A DNA stretch of 64,000 bases from an uncultured archaeon (GTDB lineage Archaea > Thermoplasmatota > Thermoplasmata > Thermoplasmatales > Thermoplasmataceae), in assembly GCA_000965745.1 (NCBI GenBank), contig CP009479.1:62001-126000 (forward strand), given 5' to 3'. Shown piece by piece: positions 5,854 to 53,069 of the stretch (the first letter of the stretch is position 1; every line of letters starts with the position of its first letter). Under the pieces are notes generated by a model. The model saw only the letters and a list, made by a program, of their open reading frames with translations, had not been told where the DNA came from and made no database searches. The position numbers and the translations under genes were made by a program.

Positions 5854-6399
5854 CTACTCGCCTCCCTTTAGCAGGTAGATTCCATCCTGGAATATTCTCG
5901 GATCAAATCTCCTGATCTTTGTTGCTCTCTCTATGTTTGCCGAAGTCTCACCGATCTCTCTCTTGTCTATGCCTTCAATGGTAAGCCTGTCTCCCTTGAC
6001 GTTGACTTTCGTGTTTCCGATTATGTTTGCTATCCTTGCGGACCTCTCACCGAGGAAATTTTCCACCACTACGGCGTTCCCCCTCACGGAAACCCTCATG
6101 GGAAAGTGAGTGTAATCTATCTTCATGTGGTATTCGAAACCGCTCGTAACACCGTTTATCATGCTCTTGAGCTCTGAAGTCCAGGTGCCAAGGATACCGT
6201 TGTTCCTGCGGTTCTTCTTGCTCATGGTTATTTTTATCTTGCTGCCTTCGATCGAAATTCTGAGATAGTTGTCCGGGAGATTCCTCTTTACCTCTCCCTT
6301 CGGGCCCTTAACTGTAATCACAGTACCTGCCTGATTGGCAGTAACTCCCTCAGGAATATCGATCTCTGCTGCTTCTTCCCATTTCACCACTTGTATCAC
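5854..6399 (-). CDS. rpl6: Ribosomal protein uL6
   Basis: 181 residues with two L6 repeats; the segment [20 protein letters not shown] and the C-terminal [12 protein letters not shown] are typical of archaeal L6 near the GTPase centre. The start is a GTG at 6399 directly abutting the TAG stop of rps8, so initiation probably depends on termination of the upstream gene. Confidence 0.96.
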
Positions 6400-6789
6400 C
6401 TAATAGACGTATGCTATGAGTCTTCCCCCGAGACCCATCTTCCTTGCTTCGATATGGCTCATCACTCCCTTCGTTGTTGAAAGGATGAGTATGCCGAAAT
6501 CCTGGGCAGGAAGATACCTGGCTTCATACTTGTCCAGGTTTGCCCTTTTCACTGGCAGCCTGGGCTTGATAACACCACAGTTGTTTATGGTGTTGCTGAG
6601 CACTATCTTGAATTTTCCGCCTCTGCTGTCGTCCATCACTTCAAAGCTCTTCAGGTAGTTGTATTCCTGCATTACCTTCAGAACCCTGCCGATGAGCCTC
6701 GCAGCCGGCTCGGTTTCAATCTCTTTTCTGCCGATCCTTGATGCGTTCTTTATCACGTTGATTATATCATTTAACGGGTCGTGTTTCAT
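6400..6789 (-). CDS. rps8: Ribosomal protein uS8
   Basis: 129 residues starting MKHDPLNDIINVIKNASRIG, the classic S8 N-terminus. The C-terminus ILSTTKGVMSHIEARKMGLG is the S8 signature region that contacts the central domain of 16S rRNA. The gene follows rps14 with a 9-nt gap that contains a short GGTGA-type ribosome binding site. Confidence 0.97.
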   Translation of the reverse strand: MKHDPLNDIINVIKNASRIGRKEIETEPAARLIGRVLKVMQEYNYLKSFEVMDDSRGGKFKIVLSNTINNCGVIKPRLPVKRANLDKYEARYLPAQDFGILILSTTKGVMSHIEARKMGLGGRLIAYVY

Positions 6790-6798
6790 TTGTTCACC

Positions 6799-6960
6799 TC
6801 AGCTGTATTTCCTGAATCCCAGTACGGGTGCAGTATCCCTGAAACACTGCCTGCACAGGCGAAGACCGTATCTCCTGACTAGGCCTCTTTTGCGCCCGCA
6901 TCGCTGGCACCCGTCCTTGCGTCCGAATTTTTTCTTAGGTTCAAGTTTGATTTGACTCAT
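6799..6960 (-). CDS. rps14: Ribosomal protein uS14 (zinc-binding form)
   Basis: A short gene of 53 residues read from ATG 6960 to TGA 6799. It contains two Cys pairs, CQRC (residues 18-21) and CRQC (36-39), which form the zinc site of the archaeal/type Z S14 protein, and a basic C-terminus ending FRKYS. It lies in the invariant slot between rpl5 and rps8. Confidence 0.96.
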
Positions 6961-6964
6961 TGAT

Positions 6965-7480
6965 TCACCTTACCACCACGAGGCCGTACTTGCTGGTCAG
7001 GAATTCCATGGCCTCCTCCCTTTTTACCCTGATTTTTGAGGGCACCTTCTTTGCGCCTATCTTCCTCTTGTGGAGCCTGAAGCCTCCTTTCCTCTTGATT
7101 ACAACTGCAACGTCCATGCCGAATATTCCGATATTTGGATCGTACTTCATTCCCTTGAAATCAGTGTAATCGGCAACTCCGAAGTATGCGTTGCCCTGCT
7201 TGTCGAATGAATAGTGGGGAACCTTGTATTCCCTTGCATACAGAGCCCTCTGGAGGAATTCCTCAGCGTCTTTTCCCCTCAGCGTTACCTTTGTGCCTAT
7301 TGTCAGGCCCTGTCTTATGTTGAAGTCTCTCACTGTCTTCTTTGAGGTAGTGGTGACAGGAGTGTGCTTGGTTAGCATCTCAAGCACCTTCGTTGCCTTT
7401 GTGAGCCTTTCGCCCGCCTGGCCTACTCCTATATTCACAACTACCTTGTCGATAGTGATCTCTTCCATTGGGTTACTCAT
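6965..7480 (-). CDS. rpl5: Ribosomal protein uL5
   Basis: 171 residues. The N-terminal [12 protein letters not shown]-like segment (here [13 protein letters not shown]) and [14 protein letters not shown] are the conserved L5 motifs; the protein binds 5S rRNA and the P-site tRNA. It overlaps the end of rps4e by 8 nt. Confidence 0.97.
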
Positions 7481-8195
7481 AGACTGCTACACCCCCTATC
7501 TTGGGTATCTCATACGAATACTTCGCCCCGCCTACGACAAAAGCGTAATCGGTGATTGTTGAGTATCCTTCCTCGAAGTGTATCAGGTTCTTGTGCGATG
7601 ATTCCTTGATCTCGATCTTCTTGATTGTGGCAACATTGCCGGCGTGCGATCCGCCTGTGAGGAATACCTTGTTTCCCGGCTGGAGCTTCATTACTTCCTG
7701 TATCTTCTTGCCGGGGATTGTCACCAGTGCTACATCGCCGGGTTTTACTTCCTTGTTGTCAGATACCACGATCTGCCCGTCATGGAAGCTGAGCTGGATT
7801 TTCCCGCCCTTTATTGTTGACTTGTCCATCACTTTCATGAGTTTCTTGTCGGAGTTATCCTTGCTCTCCTCTCCGAGAACGAGGCCGCCTTTCCTGTCGT
7901 ACAGGACCCGGAAGCTCTTTCCAACCTGGTCTATGGTAATGAGATCCATGAAGCCTACAGGATATCTCCTGTCTTTCACTATTTTTCCATCCACCTTTAC
8001 AAGGCCGTTTACCAGGATCCTTGTGATCTCCCTTTCCTTGTCTCCTATCTTGAGATAATCCCTGAGTGCCGTGAGGAGTGCCATTGAATCCTTTCTGTTG
8101 TGTTTGCCCGGCCTCGGGCTTGCTCCCCAGAAGAAGGTCTTCCTTGGTATCTTGACGGACCTTGATATCATCAGTCTCTTTGTCTTGTTGATCAT
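7473..8195 (-). CDS. rps4e: Ribosomal protein eS4
   Basis: 240 residues with an N-terminal region containing ASPRPGKHNRKDSMALLTAL, an S4-like RNA-binding domain around residues 40-100 (GDKEREITRILVNGLVKVDG) and a C-terminal KOW-like segment. The gene is archaeal/eukaryote specific. ATG 8195 overlaps the TGA of rpl24 by 4 nt. Confidence 0.95.
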   Translation of the reverse strand: MINKTKRLMISRSVKIPRKTFFWGASPRPGKHNRKDSMALLTALRDYLKIGDKEREITRILVNGLVKVDGKIVKDRRYPVGFMDLITIDQVGKSFRVLYDRKGGLVLGEESKDNSDKKLMKVMDKSTIKGGKIQLSFHDGQIVVSDNKEVKPGDVALVTIPGKKIQEVMKLQPGNKVFLTGGSHAGNVATIKKIEIKESSHKNLIHFEEGYSTITDYAFVVGGAKYSYEIPKIGGVAVYE

Positions 8196-10248: not shown

Positions 10249-11374
10249 TTTCCTCTACCCTACCTTCATCTTTCTTTACTTCCTCGGCCGCTTCCGGCTT
10301 TGGCTCTTCTGATTCCTTCTTTTCTGCCTTTTTCTCTGATTTCTTCTCAGTTTTTTTGGTAGTTTTCCTGGGAGCTGGTTTTTCCTTTACGGCTTCCTTT
10401 GGCTCTTCAGCTGGCTTCTCTTCCACAGGTTTTGTACCTTCCGCCTTTGCTTCAGGCTCCTTCACTTCAGGTTTTGCCTCTACTTTCTTCTCCTCAGCCT
10501 GGGGCTTTACCTCTTCAGCCTTTACTTCGGCTTCAGGTTCCTTCACTTCAGGTTTTGCCTCTACTTTCTTCGCTTCGGCTTGAGGACTTACCTTTTCCTT
10601 GGCCTTTTCAGCCTCTGGCGTGGGCTTTGCTTTTCTTTCAGCCGGCCTGGCCTGCCTTTCTTCAGGCTTCCTCGGCCTTCTTCCCCTGGCACCGGGCCTC
10701 TCTCTCTGCCCCTCAGGCTTCTTTGCCACTGCCTCTGCCTTTTGGTCCCCTTCCTGTATCAGCTGTGGGGTTGAAACTCCAAGCTTTTCAGATACGACAT
10801 AGTCGTCAGGGAGCTTGTAGTCGCTCTTGAGTATTCCTACTTTGACTCCAATCACGCCAAGCTTGAGCTTGGCAATTGAGAACCCTCTCTCCATTCCTTC
10901 CCTCGCGGGCTCTCCGGAGTACTTCACGGAACCGCTCATGAATTTCTGCATCCTTCCCCTCTCTCCTGAGAGCTTTCCGGATACTGAAATTATGACGCCT
11001 CTTGCACCGTTCTCAACGATTCTCCTCAGAGAAGTGTTTCCTGCCTTCCTGTACGCCCAGCCTTTTTCCAGTGAAAGGGCGATCTTCTTTGATACAACCT
11101 GTGGATTCAGGTCGGGATTGTCGATCTCCTTGACTTCAATCTGCGGTGATTCGATCTGGTACTTCTTTTCGAGATTCTCTGTGATCTGCTGGACCTTGGA
11201 GCCATGCCTTCCAATGACAAGGCCAGGCTTGTTTACGTGAAGTGTTATGTTGGTTCCGAATGGTGTCCTCTTCATCTCCATCCCTCCGAAACCGGCGTTC
11301 TCAGTCTCCTTTCTTATGTATTCAGAGACCAGCAGTTTCTTCACTGCCTCGTTGATAAACTTCCTCTCGTTCAT
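10208..11374 (-). CDS. rps3: Ribosomal protein uS3 with ~175-residue Lys/Glu/Pro/Ala C-terminal extension
   Basis: The first ~210 residues are a normal S3: KH-2 domain with [20 protein letters not shown] and the C-terminal domain with [20 protein letters not shown] and [12 protein letters not shown]. From about residue 215 the protein continues as a low-complexity, highly charged tail of Lys, Glu, Pro and Ala, giving 388 residues where archaeal S3 is usually 200-260. The tail includes two near-identical 27-residue repeats (see repeat entry). S3 lines the mRNA entry tunnel and has helicase activity in bacteria; the tail would project from the head of the small subunit (inference). Confidence 0.95.
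10451..10571 (-). repeat. Tandem in-gene repeat (81-bp period) in rps3 tail
   Basis: Positions 10451-10490 and 10532-10571 are identical at 39 of 40 bases, offset by 81 bp (27 codons). They encode two copies of [14 protein letters not shown]. The near identity at the DNA level, not just protein level, points to a recent duplication or slippage event within the extension. Confidence 0.9.
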
Positions 11375-11820
11375 TCTTCTACCTCTTCAAGTACTATTTC
11401 AAGATTTATCAGGTCCTTGAAATTTGCTCCCGCTCTTCCATAGGCCTTTGGTGTGTATTTCTTAATCATTCTTCCCTTGGATGCTGCTATGTGCTTTACC
11501 ACGAGGGCATCCATGTTCAGGCTCTTGAATTCTGCATTGGCCTCTGCGTTGTCTATCAGTTCCCTGAATGCCTTTGCCGCTTTGACCGGGTACCTCCCCG
11601 GGCCCATTCCCCTTTTGTGTGAGACGGAATCGAGGTATCGGAAATAGGGGACAGGTGTCTTCTTTTCTATTACTCCGTCTATCAGATCCCTGACGCGCTC
11701 TAGCTTCTTTCCCCTGAGGAAATGGGCTATGTTGACCGCGTCCTTGAGGGATATGTCTGTCTCCTTTACCCTCGCAATGGCACTTTTTTCAGGTATTTCA
11801 GTTATTGAGTATCCTTTCAT
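11371..11820 (-). CDS. rpl22: Ribosomal protein uL22
   Basis: 149 residues. The archaeal L22 core includes [20 protein letters not shown], the [20 protein letters not shown] loop that reaches into the exit tunnel, and [20 protein letters not shown] near the end. It overlaps rps3 by 4 nt. Confidence 0.97.
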
Positions 11821-11824
11821 ATGA

Positions 11825-12280
11825 TCACTTCAGCGGCATGAACTTGGAGGACCTTGTAGCACCTACTCCCGGCCCGGAGTGCTTGACATCCTTCCTTGTA
11901 GGAGCAAATTCCCCAAGGTAGTGGCCTATCATTTCCGGCCTGATCTCAAACTTGACGTATTGATTGCCGTTGTATACCTCGAGAACTTTCCCAACGTATT
12001 TGGGAAGTATAACGAAACTCCTTACATGCGTCTTGATGTTTGCCTCTGATCCTTCCATCTTCTCTTTCAGCTTGGCCTGCTCGTAATTGAAATCCCTCGT
12101 AAGGGACCTCCTTATTCTTGCAGGTAGTATTTCCAGCAGTTTTTCAAATTCGAGCGCCTGAAGTTCTTCAATGGTAAGCCCCTTGTATCTGAACTCCTTG
12201 GATCTTCCTGCCGCTACCTTCTGTGACTTTCGTGACCTTCTCTTTATGGATTTTACAGATGCCTGCTTTTTGACCGGCAT
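11825..12280 (-). CDS. rps19: Ribosomal protein uS19
   Basis: 151 residues with a basic N-terminal extension typical of archaeal/eukaryotic S15/S19 and the conserved C-terminal VRSFVILPKYVGKVLEVYNG and GHYLGEFAPTRKDVKHSGPG. It binds the head of the small subunit with S13. The A of its start codon is the last base of the rpl2 stop codon. Confidence 0.97.
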   Translation of the reverse strand: MPVKKQASVKSIKRRSRKSQKVAAGRSKEFRYKGLTIEELQALEFEKLLEILPARIRRSLTRDFNYEQAKLKEKMEGSEANIKTHVRSFVILPKYVGKVLEVYNGNQYVKFEIRPEMIGHYLGEFAPTRKDVKHSGPGVGATRSSKFMPLK

Positions 12281-44171: not shown

Positions 44172-47100
44172 ATGAGCGTGAAAAATAAAATAATTTTTTC
44201 AATTATTATTACAGCACTCATGCTCCTGTCGGGGCTGAGCCTAATCGACACGGGTCTTGTTCACAACAGCTCAGGAAACAGTGCTCAAGCTAATCCATCA
44301 GTCACAAAAACCTATACCCTGACCTTCAAGGAGACGGGGTTGGAGAATTTGTTCCCCGGCTCAATGAACTGGACTTTAGTTCTCTGGAACTATTCTGGTT
44401 ACATCTACTACTTTTCCGGTACTCATGGGACTGTGAATGTAACACCCGGAACGTACAACTATCAGGCAACTGACTATTTTGGGCAGAGTACCCCCTATTC
44501 ATCTACCTTTACTGTAAGCTCGAACATGACTTTCAATGTCAGCTTCACTTCCCCGCAAAAGTTGGTCTTCAGCGGGGCTGGCTTGAGCAGCCAGTACTCC
44601 TGGGGAGTGATTCTTAAATCATTCTACGACAATGTGTATACATCCAACAGTACAGTGAAAGGAGGTTCCAACGTAGTTTACTACGGTATTCAAAGCAGCT
44701 ACTCCTACAGCTGGTACGAAGTCAAGAACGGCGTTAACACGACGATAGGAAGTTCATCAATCCAGATAGGGGCCGGAAGCACAGACTTCACCTTCAAGTT
44801 GCCCTTGAACGTTTTCAGCAACGTTACGGTCAAGTCAGGCACCCTTCCTGCAGGCACGAAGTGGTTCTTGATCCCGGTGGATTCCACTGCTTCAACTGTC
44901 TATTCAACAGGAAGTTCGGTCAATCTCACTCTGGAAAATGGCCCACACACATATGAGTATGGCTATGTGCTTCATAACGGCCAGAATATTGACATAGCAA
45001 ATGTGACGCTTGACTCCGGGGCGGTTAGCTCTTACACGCTTAAGTTCCCGTCCCTGACGAATGTTTCCTTCAAGCCGGTTTCGGCATTTCCAGCTTACAC
45101 TTACTCATGGGGAATAATGGGGAAGTTAGCATCCTCTGGGATTACCAACACATTCAATATTTCCTCCGCCACAATTCTAGAACCTTACGCTTTGCTTCCT
45201 GACGGCGCAGTAAATGTAACTCCGTACATAGTTCAGGGCAATCTGACTGGCCCCAACGGGGGAGGGTACGGAATACTTTCCTCATCCTACAATATCAACG
45301 TTTCCAGCTCCACCGCACTGCAGCAAGTGACTATCCCCAACTACAACAAGGTTACAGTCAAGGTAAACGGGATACCTTCTGGAACATATGCCACCATTTC
45401 AGGCATTCCGGGAAAACTCTTCGCTTACTCTGCCAATGTCCTTCAGGGGCAGTCATTCAGTTTCCTTGCACCCAACGGCAAGTACGCTTTCAAGTTGAGT
45501 CTCCCTAGCTACTACTATGAGGGATTCCAGTTCAATGTCACAGCAGGGGGAAGTTCGCAGACGACGAGCCTTGCATTGTACAATATCACTTTCCCCGCTC
45601 CTTACACATACACGACATTCTCTGTTGATGTGTTCGGTTATGAGCCCTATGATATTGTGTCCAGCGGAACTTCCACGCCAGGCCAACCCTTCTTCGTGTA
45701 CCTTCCAAACGGCACATACTCATACTATGACGTTGTGCAGTCTGCGGGACCTAGTGGCCTTTTTGTGCCAGATTCTGGCACGTTCAAGGTAGCAGGTTCC
45801 TCTGCCACGGTGAAACAGAATTTTCCATCCAAGTTCTACAATGTGACTGTAAAGGCCAACAACCTGCCGTCCTCGGCGAAGTGGAGTGCGTTCTTATCCT
45901 CAAGCACAAGCAACATTGAAGGAGTAACGAATACTACGTCGGGCGCAGCGTCGTGGGTATGGCTCCCCGCGGGACAGTATTACTTAAGCGTACAGTCCGC
46001 CCAGAATTCGACACAGTACTTCATGTCCAACTACAGCCTGGTCACGGTGAGTTCTTCTGGATCAAACATATTTGACCTGAATCTCACACCGAATTCCTAC
46101 ATCACCTTCTCGGAATCCGGCCTTCCGTCCGGAGCTTCCTGGTCTGTGACCTTCAACGGGAAAACCTACACCTCGAGTGCTTCAAACATAGTAACTTCGG
46201 TAGACATGGGATTCCTGACAGGGTCTTATCCCTTTGAAATCGGCAGCATCAACGGGTATTCATCAAATCCGGGATCAGGATACGTTAACCTGTCTGCAAA
46301 CTACTACCAGTCGAATTTTGAAGTGCCGGTTATCTTCACCCCGAACGGGCTTCCCGGCCAGCATGTGAGCATGAACACCTACACGCTGTCTGACCAGAAG
46401 CTCCAGACAGGCTCCTACTTCAGCACAAACCAGAAGGTTTCAGGCAATGCAATAGCATTTGACAGCGGAAGGGGAAATGTCTACATAGGGGAAACAAACC
46501 ACGGCGTTGCCGGGATAGCTGTCCTCAATTCCTCGACCTACGCCTTGAAGGATAACATTACCCTTCAGCAGGGAGGGAAGATACTCAGCATGGTTGTGGA
46601 CCAGTCCACCGGTTATCTCTACGCATCATACAGCTACAAATACTATTACCACATAGTTTCAGTGAATCTTGACACCTTTTCAGTGACGCTTACAACCGGA
46701 AATTTCGACTCTCCCGTCAGCCTGCTTGTTGATCCCGCAAACGGAGTTCTCTATGCGGCTGGCCAGAGGAACATCTATGCCCTTAACCCGTCATCTCTGG
46801 CAGTTGAGTCTGCCATACCGGTTCAGAATGATTTGTACAACAATTATTACTCGGCCTACAACCCTGAGCCTCTGTGGCTTGAGTACTCCAAAGCTACCGG
46901 GATGATTTACGCGACAGGGTACACCTTCAACAGCATACTGGAAATAAACCCGGCAACAAACACCATAGTGGGGAATTACAGTTTCGGTCCTGTGCCAAAT
47001 AGCTTTGAATACATTGGAGGCTCCCTCATTGACAGCGCCAACGGAAACATATACCTCGAGGTCACAAACACAGGTACATCCTACTCCCTTAGTTCACATC

Positions 47101-48287
47101 TTGAGGTGTTCAACCCGTCCACTGGCAAGTTCCTTGCGCCACTGTCCATACCAAACGGGACCAACTTCATGCTTGCCCAGAATCCGGCAAACGGAAACCT
47201 CATTGTGCCAATTGACAGATACCTTGTTCTTGGCTTTGCTTTCAGCGACCTTGCTGTGGGGACTCTGGCTGAGGTAAATGTCACAACAGGATCGGTTTAC
47301 AATAGCTTCCAGACTGGCCCAGACACGTACCAGGCAGCAGTAAACCCCAAAAATGGAGATGTGCTGGTTTCAAACATGGGTTCCGATGCCATAAACGTGA
47401 TATCGGCAGCTTCGGCTTACGGATATCTTAACGGGACCGTCTCGAACAAGGGTGCGACAGTAACAGTAGACGGCCTTTCCGTGCCATTGATAAACGGTGC
47501 ATTCAATGTTTCCCTTGCACCCGGGACGTATTTTGTTACCGTAAACGCCAACGGGTCAACCCCCGTGTTCAAGGAAGTGACGATAAAAGCTTACTCCACC
47601 ACGACTGTTGACATCCAGATGGCGCAGTCCACAACCTACAAGGTCTATGGCTATGTTACTCCCGGAACTGCTGCTGTTACACTCAACGGAATAAGCGCGG
47701 CAGTAAGCAAAACGGGTTACTTCACTGTGTATGCCTCCAGTGGCACCTACACGCTTTCAGCATACCTGAACGGATATTTCCCGTTCTCTGAAAACATCAA
47801 GGTTGCATCGAATGAGGAAGTGAACATCTCACTGGCAAGGGAGCCTGTACCCACAAGCGTTCTTGCCAGCACGAACGTGACTTCAGATGGGTTCAACGTC
47901 ACAGTATCCAACCTGACTGAGACTTCAAAGAACATATCTCTGGATTTCACTTCAACAGGAAACGGAACCATTACCATAGCAGTGCCGTACTCCGACCTGA
48001 AGAACCTGAACCTTTCTGAAATCCTTCACAGCAGGGTTTACATCGGTGGAACGCAGTACAGCAACTTCACGATAACAGTGAGTTCCAATTTCACGGTGAT
48101 CCTGACAGTGAAGGGGCTGGCTGGAGATCCGCACCTCGTGTGGTCTTTCTCATCAGCGCCCGTAATAGTGCCGCCACCATTGAAGGCCCCTGGCAATAGC
48201 ATGCTGATTTACGCAGGAATTGCGGCAGGAATCATCATAGTGATCGCAGGGGTAGGATACTGGTTCACGAGAAGGAAGAAACAGTAA
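44172..48287 (+). CDS. Giant cell-surface protein: ETGLP-type modules, beta-propeller, PEGA-like repeats, C-terminal anchor
   Basis: 1371 residues. Signal peptide at 1-25 (IIFSIIITALMLLSGLSLI). Several repeats of a 70-100 residue beta module begin near TLTFKETGLENLFPGSMNW and include ITFSESGLPSGASWSVTF. Around residues 745-1085 there are YVTN-like propeller repeats (VYIGETNHGVAGIAVLNSST, VLVSNMGSDAINVISAASA). Residues about 1085-1240 hold two carboxypeptidase-regulatory/PEGA-like repeats (NGAFNVSLAPGTYFVTVNAN). The protein ends with a hydrophobic helix and FTRRKKQ. Tyr, Ser and Asn are abundant, and N-x-S/T sites are many. Probable adhesion or envelope role; no catalytic site seen. Confidence 0.85.
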   Translation: MSVKNKIIFSIIITALMLLSGLSLIDTGLVHNSSGNSAQANPSVTKTYTLTFKETGLENLFPGSMNWTLVLWNYSGYIYYFSGTHGTVNVTPGTYNYQATDYFGQSTPYSSTFTVSSNMTFNVSFTSPQKLVFSGAGLSSQYSWGVILKSFYDNVYTSNSTVKGGSNVVYYGIQSSYSYSWYEVKNGVNTTIGSSSIQIGAGSTDFTFKLPLNVFSNVTVKSGTLPAGTKWFLIPVDSTASTVYSTGSSVNLTLENGPHTYEYGYVLHNGQNIDIANVTLDSGAVSSYTLKFPSLTNVSFKPVSAFPAYTYSWGIMGKLASSGITNTFNISSATILEPYALLPDGAVNVTPYIVQGNLTGPNGGGYGILSSSYNINVSSSTALQQVTIPNYNKVTVKVNGIPSGTYATISGIPGKLFAYSANVLQGQSFSFLAPNGKYAFKLSLPSYYYEGFQFNVTAGGSSQTTSLALYNITFPAPYTYTTFSVDVFGYEPYDIVSSGTSTPGQPFFVYLPNGTYSYYDVVQSAGPSGLFVPDSGTFKVAGSSATVKQNFPSKFYNVTVKANNLPSSAKWSAFLSSSTSNIEGVTNTTSGAASWVWLPAGQYYLSVQSAQNSTQYFMSNYSLVTVSSSGSNIFDLNLTPNSYITFSESGLPSGASWSVTFNGKTYTSSASNIVTSVDMGFLTGSYPFEIGSINGYSSNPGSGYVNLSANYYQSNFEVPVIFTPNGLPGQHVSMNTYTLSDQKLQTGSYFSTNQKVSGNAIAFDSGRGNVYIGETNHGVAGIAVLNSSTYALKDNITLQQGGKILSMVVDQSTGYLYASYSYKYYYHIVSVNLDTFSVTLTTGNFDSPVSLLVDPANGVLYAAGQRNIYALNPSSLAVESAIPVQNDLYNNYYSAYNPEPLWLEYSKATGMIYATGYTFNSILEINPATNTIVGNYSFGPVPNSFEYIGGSLIDSANGNIYLEVTNTGTSYSLSSHLEVFNPSTGKFLAPLSIPNGTNFMLAQNPANGNLIVPIDRYLVLGFAFSDLAVGTLAEVNVTTGSVYNSFQTGPDTYQAAVNPKNGDVLVSNMGSDAINVISAASAYGYLNGTVSNKGATVTVDGLSVPLINGAFNVSLAPGTYFVTVNANGSTPVFKEVTIKAYSTTTVDIQMAQSTTYKVYGYVTPGTAAVTLNGISAAVSKTGYFTVYASSGTYTLSAYLNGYFPFSENIKVASNEEVNISLAREPVPTSVLASTNVTSDGFNVTVSNLTETSKNISLDFTSTGNGTITIAVPYSDLKNLNLSEILHSRVYIGGTQYSNFTITVSSNFTVILTVKGLAGDPHLVWSFSSAPVIVPPPLKAPGNSMLIYAGIAAGIIIVIAGVGYWFTRRKKQ

Positions 48288-49412: not shown

Positions 49413-51992
49413 GTGTCCAAGGCCCTGCTAAAGCAACTCTGTGGCAAACATGCCATTATCATACTTGTTATAATTATGGTCATTGTTCCCTCACTGCCGG
49501 CCTCTTTTTCAAGCCAGTCAGGAAGCGCAATTGAACAGGTGAAAGGTTCAGCAATACCAGGGAATGCCAATGGCAGCAGCATTACAAATTCCAGTTTTCA
49601 TACAGACATTCTGGGGAGCAGGATCACAGGTTATGTGGCCACGGGAAACAGTACAGTTCCCATAAACAAGAAAGTGGGGAGCCTTTCAGTCGTCATAACG
49701 TTAAAGTACCAGGACCAGGCAGGGTTGAACAGCTATCTTCAGGAGCTGCAGGACCCTTCATCCCCCTTCTATCACCATTACCTTACACACCGGGAATTTG
49801 TTCAGAGATATTCCCCTCCTGCTGAGGTTTACAATTCCCTGAACAAGTATCTCGCCTCCAGGGGATTTGATACAAAAACATATTCAGACAGGGTGTCAGT
49901 CGGAGTATCTGGGTCGGCCTCACAGTTTGACAGCCTTTTCCACACATCCATAATGAATGTGAAGAAGGGTAACAGCACATTCTACGCACCGGTGAAGCCG
50001 GTAAGCTTAGGCTGGCAGTATCATGGAGCAATATCCAATGTTGCCGGGTTGAGCGATGAGCATACGGCACAGATATCGCCTCTTTTCACCGGCCCGTCCG
50101 GTTCAGAAGTGCTTTTCGGCTCGGATCTGCAGGCTGCATACCAGCTGGACAAGCTTTACCAGGCAAGGGGGTACCCCACAAACGAGACAGTTGCAACCAT
50201 ACTCTGGTCGGGGGCATACAACGGAAGTTCTGTCGCCCCCTTCGTTCCATCGGATATTTCATATTACTTCAGCCACAACCTTCCTCCCGGGGAGCCAGAA
50301 CCTGTATTCTACGGCCTTCCTGTAGGAGGTGCGCCACTCCCTGGACCTTCGGCAAAGAACGATTCCACGCGGGCGAACTATGAGAGCACACTGGATCTGG
50401 AAATGGCCGGAAGCACGGCGCCTGGAGCCACCCTCGTGGAAGTTTACGGGCCGTCGCCAACAATGAGCTACCTTGACCAGGCTTTCGCAGAGATCCTCAA
50501 CCCGAATTACAACACTACACTCGACAACGCGCTCTCCCATGTGACTGCAATATCAAACTCATGGGGAGGAGGGGACAGCTATGATTCCTCCTGGGTACAG
50601 TATGAGCAGGAATCTGCTGCCAGGGGAATAACTGTCCTGGCATCATCGGGCGACAACGGGAACACGGGGAATCCTGCCCCTGGTTTTCCAGCGACAGTAG
50701 GGTATGACTCATACGGAACCCTGGCAGTGGGTGGAACACAGACTTCCGTCGCTGGAAACGCCTCAAATGATGGTACAGGCACCACTGGAATAGCTTCACA
50801 GTCTGTCTGGTACAATTCGCCCAGTTCGGGAGACGGTTCCCAGGGAGGCGTCAGTTCAGTATATTCCGAACCATCATGGCAGCTCAACAGCCCGGATGCA
50901 AACGGCGTCATAACAGGCAACAGCACGATCACGGGCGTTCAATCCGGGAGGGGGACTCCCGATGTTGCAGCAGTGGGGGCGAACATGTGGATGTATATGT
51001 CCACGTACTCCTACGGGACTGGTTATTACGAGTTATGGGGAACCAGTGTCGCCTCGCCGCTTGATGCGGGGCTCATAGCAACGATGGACCACTACACAGG
51101 GTCCATGGAGGGGTTCATGAACCCGCTCATATACAGCCTGGGCCAGGACCAGTTCCAGGGGCTGTACAATGGGCCGCCACCATTTTACTGGATCTACAAC
51201 GGATCGAATGGTGAATTTTCCTCCGCGCGTGGATACAACCTTGTGGACGGCTGGGGAAGCATAAATGCATACAACTTAATCCTTGCCGAGCAGAGTTTTG
51301 AAAGTGTCACCTTAACCGAGTCAGGGCTTCCTTCCGGAACCAGGTGGTACGTGAACCTGACAAACGGTCAGTCATTCTCGTCAACCAGCAATTCGATCTC
51401 ATTATCCGAGCCAAGCGGTACCTACGGCTACACCGCATCGTCGGAGAACGGGAGGCTCGTGCCTTCCTCACCCGCCGGACAGTTCAGCGTCAACGGCTCA
51501 CCGGTTTCGTTGGGTGTCACGTTCCAGGGAAGGAGCTATTCTGTTGTGTTCTCTGAAACCGGGCTTCCTCCACCTTATGAATGGTATGTAAATCTCAGCA
51601 ACGGGTTGAGCTCCGGGCCAATAAGCAGTTCTTCCTACACCGCCAGCCTTCCGAACGGAACTTATTCGTATACTGTCTCGAGCGGAAATAAAAGCTATTC
51701 CCCCGGCATATCATCAGGCAGTTTCACAGTCCAGGGCGCCGCCATGACGGTACCACCTGTATCGTTCTCTGAAGTAAGATATACATTCACTTTCAATGAG
51801 ATCAACCTTAAGCCGGGAATGACGTGGTATCTCAACGTATCAGGCCAGCATTCATCAGGACCCGTTTCGTCAACGTCATATAGCCTGAAGCTGCCCAACG
51901 GGACTTATTCATACACAGCGGCTTCAACCGACAAACGATATGTTCCTTCGCCTTCATACGGAACCGCCACGGTCAATGGCGGACCAGGCTAG
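49413..51992 (+). CDS. S53-family (sedolisin/kumamolisin-type) secreted acid protease, stopped by in-frame TAG
   Basis: 859 residues from GTG 49413; a TATA-like ACGTTTAAGG lies about 26 nt upstream. Signal peptide at 12-30 (AIIILVIIMVIVPSLPAS). Residues about 65-225 are the S53 pro-domain (YLQELQDPSSPFYHHYLTHR). The catalytic domain carries Glu324 and Asp328 (YESTLDLEMAG), Asp414 in ASSGDNG and Ser545 in GTSVASP, the complete S53 set. From about 630 there are ETGLP-type beta modules (VTLTESGLPSGTRWYVNLT). The TAG at codon 860 interrupts the fourth-module join; the same frame continues to 53069. The protease part should be complete and active at low pH. Confidence 0.9.
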   Translation: MSKALLKQLCGKHAIIILVIIMVIVPSLPASFSSQSGSAIEQVKGSAIPGNANGSSITNSSFHTDILGSRITGYVATGNSTVPINKKVGSLSVVITLKYQDQAGLNSYLQELQDPSSPFYHHYLTHREFVQRYSPPAEVYNSLNKYLASRGFDTKTYSDRVSVGVSGSASQFDSLFHTSIMNVKKGNSTFYAPVKPVSLGWQYHGAISNVAGLSDEHTAQISPLFTGPSGSEVLFGSDLQAAYQLDKLYQARGYPTNETVATILWSGAYNGSSVAPFVPSDISYYFSHNLPPGEPEPVFYGLPVGGAPLPGPSAKNDSTRANYESTLDLEMAGSTAPGATLVEVYGPSPTMSYLDQAFAEILNPNYNTTLDNALSHVTAISNSWGGGDSYDSSWVQYEQESAARGITVLASSGDNGNTGNPAPGFPATVGYDSYGTLAVGGTQTSVAGNASNDGTGTTGIASQSVWYNSPSSGDGSQGGVSSVYSEPSWQLNSPDANGVITGNSTITGVQSGRGTPDVAAVGANMWMYMSTYSYGTGYYELWGTSVASPLDAGLIATMDHYTGSMEGFMNPLIYSLGQDQFQGLYNGPPPFYWIYNGSNGEFSSARGYNLVDGWGSINAYNLILAEQSFESVTLTESGLPSGTRWYVNLTNGQSFSSTSNSISLSEPSGTYGYTASSENGRLVPSSPAGQFSVNGSPVSLGVTFQGRSYSVVFSETGLPPPYEWYVNLSNGLSSGPISSSSYTASLPNGTYSYTVSSGNKSYSPGISSGSFTVQGAAMTVPPVSFSEVRYTFTFNEINLKPGMTWYLNVSGQHSSGPVSSTSYSLKLPNGTYSYTAASTDKRYVPSPSYGTATVNGGPG

Positions 51993-53069
51993 CTGGCAAT
52001 ATCCTTCTCCGAACTGGACTATTACCTTAACTTCACTGAGTCAGGGCTTCCGGCAGGCACAGTATGGTACGCCAACCTGAGCGACGGCGGCACAGCAAAG
52101 GTTTCAGGTTCTTCTGCCTCTTTCAGCGAACCGAATGGAACCTATTACTACAACATATCCCGAGTACAGGGGTACGAGGCTTCCACCTACTCAGGGCGGG
52201 CAGAAATATCAGGGTCCGCAACGACGGTGCCGATAATATGGGCCGTGGCCAGGTACAATATAACATTCACAGGGCAGAACCTGCCTGCTGGTACAGAGTG
52301 GTACATCAACGTATCGGGCGCGAACCATGTTTCCTCTACATCAGGGAACATAAGCCTTGATCTTCCAAACGGCACCTACGGCTATACCTTTGCATCGGGT
52401 TCTCCATACTTCTCCGGTGGGAATGCAACACTGGATGTTCGTGGTTCAGGCATGACGATCCCTGTCCATTTCACACCGCTCTTCGCAGTATCAGTCAATG
52501 CGGGAGCGCTTCCCGCCGGATCGCTCTGGTACATCAACTTCACTTCTCCGGGCGGTTTTTTCAGGAATGTTTCTGGAACTTCAGGTACGCTGACAGCAAT
52601 CCTCCCGAATGGAACCTATGAATACAGTGCCTGGTATCCTGCATCTGATTCTGAGAAGACCGGCAGCGTTACAGTTGACGGCAGGAACAGCACAATATCA
52701 GCGGATTTCCACCGGACCTCAGTTATTTCCTTCAGGGAGTCGGGCCTGCCGCAGGGCACCAAATGGTCAGTAAGGTTCAATGGAACACTCAAGAGCTCAA
52801 ACGGCAGTTACCTGAATTTCACAGTCAGAGATGGAAACGGGACCTTCTCTTTTGAGGTGCCGGATGTCACCGGATACACTGTAAGCCGCCCTTCCGGTAG
52901 CATTTCCATAAACGGGACTGCCAGCAGTGCCAGTGTTGCTCTCGAATTCACAGCCATGAAAGAACCGGCCAGAGCCCCGGCCAATGCATACTACATTGCC
53001 ATTGGGGCAATGGCTGCCATAACGGTAGCATCAACCGCCGGATTCTACGCCCTGAAGCGGAGGAGATGA
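51993..53069 (+). pseudogene. C-terminal part of the S53 protease gene downstream of the TAG, with membrane anchor
   Basis: The frame of the protease continues without another stop for 358 codons. It encodes further beta modules (NFTESGLPAGTVWYANLS, ITFTGQNLPAGTEWYINVSG, ISFRESGLPQGTKWSVRF) and ends in a membrane helix (YYIAIGAMAAITVASTAGFY) with a basic tail LKRRR. Translation could only reach it by read-through, or from an internal GTG at 52227 lacking a signal peptide. In aligned modules the stop position is Ser or Thr, so TCG to TAG is the simplest history. If the stop is real, the protease loses its anchor and becomes fully secreted. Confidence 0.8.

Follow-up and report, generated by a model that had tools for sequence, protein, structure and literature searches.

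The S53 protease gene of the archaeal genome studied here probably owes its interruption to a single recent nonsense change, the predicted acid protease having formerly been anchored in the membrane. The interruption of the frame is real and its explanation ordinary; as it stands, the locus looks like an ordinary interrupted gene and not a new way of reading genes. It lies in a window of 64,000 nucleotides (G000:C1:62001-126000), the whole stretch of DNA that was analysed, which belongs to a single-contig genome of 2,226,687 bases.

The Interrupted Reading Frame

The gene, its internal stop, and the end of the continued frame are located as follows:
49413-51992, + strand: S53 (kumamolisin-like) protease ORF, GTG start at 49413, 859 aa, ending in TAG
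51990-51992, + strand: in-frame TAG, residue 860 of the read-through frame
53067-53069, + strand: TGA closing the continued frame (ORF reading)

Between the TAG and the TGA, the same frame stays open for 358 codons, a length expected by chance with a probability of about 2e-8 in random sequence of this base composition. The coding character is maintained across the stop: codon usage amounts to 0.19 bits/codon before and 0.22 after it (genome mean 0.22 +/- 0.06), and GC3 is 0.57 and 0.56, respectively. An earlier note on this DNA, which described a split S53 gene with an open frame beyond the TAG, is upheld by these values.

Protease Domain and Catalytic Residues

The portion of the protein preceding the repeats contains the following elements:
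49452-49508 (residues 14-32), + strand: N-terminal hydrophobic segment, probable signal sequence (Kyte-Doolittle 2.67)
49683-50054 (residues 91-214), + strand: Pro-kumamolisin activation domain, PF09286 (74.9 bits, cut-off 23.5)
50382-51047, + strand: S53 catalytic residues (Glu 50382-50384, Asp 50394-50396, oxyanion Asp 50652-50654, Ser 51045-51047)

The protease aligns with solved S53 enzymes, namely, kumamolisin-As (4ne7, E 4e-21) and kumamolisin (1t1e, E 7.5e-20), and E324, D328, D414, and S545 line up with kumamolisin-As. The catalytic Glu and Asp are four residues apart, the Ser lies within a GTS motif, and the oxyanion Asp is present. These catalytic residues are invariant in 16 orthologues, and conservation extends to the whole domain: 3 of 132 positions that are invariant in 15 orthologues differ here, the orthologues themselves differing at 0-14. 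The identification as an S53 enzyme is borne out by the kumamolisin-As match, by PF09286, and by all four catalytic residues, acid activity being a prediction. Judged from these alignments, the catalytic domain is complete and lies upstream of the TAG. One further S53-like ORF occurs in the genome (G000:C1:1201838-1202578, L184); it is distant (61.3 bits) and belongs to a 1142-codon open frame.

Repeats, Membrane Anchor, and Position of the Stop

Beyond the catalytic domain, the frame continues with repeats and a terminal hydrophobic segment:
51303-51779, + strand: repeats 1 and 2 (repeat model)
51780-52019 (residues 790-869), + strand: repeat 3, broken by the TAG in its last beta-strand (repeat model, alignment, AlphaFold2 model)
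52020-52955 (residues 870-1181), + strand: repeats 4 to 7, downstream of the TAG (same frame, repeat model)
52995-53051 (residues 1195-1213), + strand: predicted C-terminal membrane helix, followed by KRRR (Kyte-Doolittle 1.62)

According to a repeat model whose seed includes the protease's own repeats, the read-through frame holds seven repeats of about 78 residues, R1-R3 at residues 631-869 and R4-R7 at residues 870-1181. Two whole repeats and most of the third precede the TAG, and four follow it. After the stop, the earlier note had placed further repeats of this type and a membrane helix at the C-terminus, and both are recovered, as repeats 4 to 7 of the model and as the hydrophobic segment at residues 1195-1213.

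The AlphaFold2 model of R3, with TAG read as Ser, is all-beta (80 residues, pLDDT 91.7). Its last strand comprises residues 70-78, and the stop is at residue 71. Foldseek matches R3 mainly to beta domains of the CnaB, transthyretin, and carboxypeptidase types, with no E value under 0.001, and any fold name given to the modelled domain is tentative. The Ser or Thr previously noticed at the TAG position in aligned repeats is found in 45 of the 64 other repeats having a residue there, as counted in a 70-row single-repeat alignment. Since the stop falls inside the last beta-strand of the modelled repeat 3, in a column that is mostly Ser/Thr in related repeats, its position is no natural domain boundary.

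Another repeat protein is encoded in the window at 44172-48287, upstream of an EamA transporter gene and of the protease. Its 1371 aa include a PEGA domain, weaker repeats of the protease's type, and a membrane helix at the C-terminus.

Comparison within the Family

Homologues of the protease are present in all 77 family genomes searched, often as repeats alone. A contig scan for S53 loci, in which near-identical genomes may be left out, returned nothing with a single protein and 49 loci with an alignment. Among 46 distinct S53 loci surveyed, some of them cut at contig ends, repeats after the stop occur at the window's locus only; a conserved stop followed by a conserved tail was not seen in any relative among them, the window's genome being the sole member of its genus in the set.

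The sister protein, from genome G004 of another genus, is uninterrupted (1440 aa), anchored, and 60% identical over the matched stretch; it corroborates the description of the window's enzyme as formerly membrane-anchored. Complete orthologues, sorted by a simple hydropathy test and not by a trained predictor, are of two forms: a terminal membrane helix is present in seven and absent from fourteen of the surveyed ones, which carry a different C-terminal domain. In a catalytic-domain tree of 28 rows, the window protein and the anchored protein of G004 form a pair (support 100/99), and the proteases without an anchor make up a separate group (support 89/99). Because of this placement, the loss of the anchor here would most simply be derived and separate from the unanchored group. 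No synteny was seen with the loci of G004, G036, and other orthologues. A repeat-family match with one TAA inside is present in a related genome (G074:C59:61829-62599).

Search for Recoding

It has been reported in a 2021 review that stop read-through in archaea is demonstrated for selenocysteine and pyrrolysine only (PMC8211752). The best PylS match in the window's genome, at 31.6 bits, falls short of the cut-off of 178, and none of the 77 family genomes contains a match over the cut-off; signal below it also appears in 12 control genomes without a match over it. Pyrrolysine decoding was rejected on these grounds, and the pyl genes to which the earlier note had drawn attention are thus not supported by PylS in the genome or the family. 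None of the 45 tRNAs found in the genome has the anticodon CTA, in a search that missed tRNA-Trp and that an unusual tRNA could therefore escape. The 100 nt after the stop fold no better than shuffled sequences (z +1.36).

Two tRNA genes with an intron after the anticodon, in L081 (about 1501-1603) and L073 (about 1500-1594), were read by eye as Tyr(GTA) and Met(CAT), respectively. ARAGORN missed the former and called the latter Tyr(ata).

Stop usage was counted with a simple gene caller in a 582 kb sample that includes the window. The 475 genes end in TGA (231), TAA (141), or TAG (103), and TAG, with a share of 22%, serves as an ordinary stop. All other long continuations in the same frame that were inspected in the sample were read, by eye, as neighbouring genes. 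General amber reassignment was therefore rejected, both on the 103 genes that end in TAG and because the long continuations inspected showed no further clear case of a TAG within a gene. The production of both protease forms through read-through, as the earlier note had suggested, finds no support in a genome with no PylS over the cut-off, no CTA tRNA among 45, no structure at the stop, and TAG as a normal stop.

A second split repeat gene was considered at L112 (315 aa) and L003 (419 aa) and was dropped, as both look like separate genes. The L112 protein (G000:C1:1228001-1244000, - strand, 10973-11920) has an N-terminal hydrophobic segment and no C-terminal anchor, and it is followed, in frame, by an apparent branched-chain aminotransferase gene. 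At L106 (G000:C1:1666001-1682000, about 5900-7500), two adjoining repeat proteins agree almost completely in the upstream stretch and in their first codons, a pattern as after tandem duplication of a 5' region.

Age of the Stop and Alternative Explanations

In simulations, the share of cases in which an unselected tail is open drops under about 10% past 0.08 substitutions per site if indels are left out, and past about 0.03-0.04 if modest indels are allowed. A drifting tail is rarely open past about 0.04-0.1 substitutions per site, according to the indel rate chosen. With the tail open as it is, three possibilities follow: a recent stop, an erroneous one, or a tail that continues to be translated. 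If the tail is unselected, the stop is young, its recency being an upper bound from simulation and not an observation. As a counterpoint, an unblemished open tail is equally expected from selected read-through or from a base error.

A sequencing or assembly error, the foremost rival explanation and one that the earlier note had raised as well, would mean that the organism has an intact gene and an anchored protease of about 1218 residues. It is unlikely, even if one differing base before an unblemished tail suits it, as does the lack of a second clear stop within a gene among those long continuations that were inspected in 582 kb: the sampled genes are intact, as are this genome's repeat proteins of the family, there is no sign of poor sequence, and nothing at the TAG base itself points to an error. 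The preference for a real nonsense change is, in this respect, a matter of judgement, whereas over functional read-through, which would yield released and anchored forms, it follows from the evidence. Undiminished codon usage and repeat scores along the open tail, a C as the base after the stop, and the occurrence of both architectures in the family accord with read-through. Nevertheless, the results for PylS (0 of 77 family genomes) and CTA tRNAs (0 of 45 found), the lack of a stable RNA fold behind the stop (z +1.36), the frequent use of TAG to end sampled genes (22%), the absence of any orthologue with repeats past its stop among the loci surveyed, and the reported restriction of demonstrated archaeal cases to selenocysteine and pyrrolysine (PMC8211752) make it quite improbable. 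Still more improbable is that a Thermoplasmatales-type archaeon reads through UAG at a useful rate without pyrrolysine and so obtains a released and a surface-anchored acid protease from one gene.

That the tail is a separate gene with its own translation is scarcely credible. A GTG at 52227 opens 280 codons, but 153 codons pass without an ATG, the continuation begins in the middle of a repeat, and a strong coding signal is present immediately behind the stop. Moreover, no signal sequence would lie ahead of it, and the strongest hydrophobic segments are at both ends of the whole frame.

In favour of the recent nonsense change are the completeness of the catalytic domain, the position of the stop within a strand, and the occurrence of repeats after the stop at this locus alone of the 46 distinct ones, as well as the uninterrupted and anchored sister, the ordinary use of TAG as a stop, and the searches described above, which gave neither PylS over the cut-off nor a CTA anticodon. 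One stop, an otherwise intact frame, and intact homologues, as expected of a gene recently interrupted by a nonsense change, are found together here.

Proposed Fate of the Protease and Its Significance

With the nonsense change, translation would stop at the TAG, and the N-terminal signal would export the truncated protease, which may process itself like other S53 enzymes. Devoid of anchor and stalk, the short product would be released from the cell surface in soluble form. The third repeat, lacking its last strand, probably misfolds or is trimmed, and protease activity may persist because the TAG leaves the catalytic domain untouched. An acid protease in soluble form would suit the way of life of these archaea, since secreted S53 and thermopsin peptidases have been reported for Cuniculiplasma (PMC5155288). 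Loss of the anchor could be tolerated, because unanchored forms in a sister group show viability in the family, or could even be useful for protein-feeding acidophiles. A real mutation would represent a natural experiment: by one base change, the only close S53 protease of the genome passes from an anchored to a soluble form. Read-through, if true, would extend archaeal stop recoding outside selenocysteine and pyrrolysine.

Comparison with Known Systems

The locus resembles the nonsense-interrupted genes and recoding candidates of archaea (PMC8211752) in its single in-frame stop and otherwise intact frame; it differs from the recoding candidates in that the searches described above found no recoding machinery or signal. 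With kumamolisin and kumamolisin-As (MEROPS S53, sedolisins; PDB 1t1e, 4ne7), the archaeal protease has in common the activation domain, the catalytic domain, and the Glu-Asp-Asp-Ser residues. Unlike these bacterial enzymes, it has a seven-repeat C-terminal stalk and a membrane helix beyond the aligned part, and the stop codon lies inside this stalk.

The unanchored S53 proteases of related genera share the catalytic domain and, like the truncated product, have no membrane anchor; however, they end in a complete C-terminal domain (e.g., NSYPDLFSVGY), whereas the window protease ends inside a repeat. In the same archaeal family, the anchored S53 proteases (G004, G044, and G070-G074 loci) have a catalytic domain and repeats as in the window protease, but their stalk is without a stop and the number of repeats is different. 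Among them, the sister G004 protein possesses, like the continued frame of the window, a terminal membrane helix with a basic tail.
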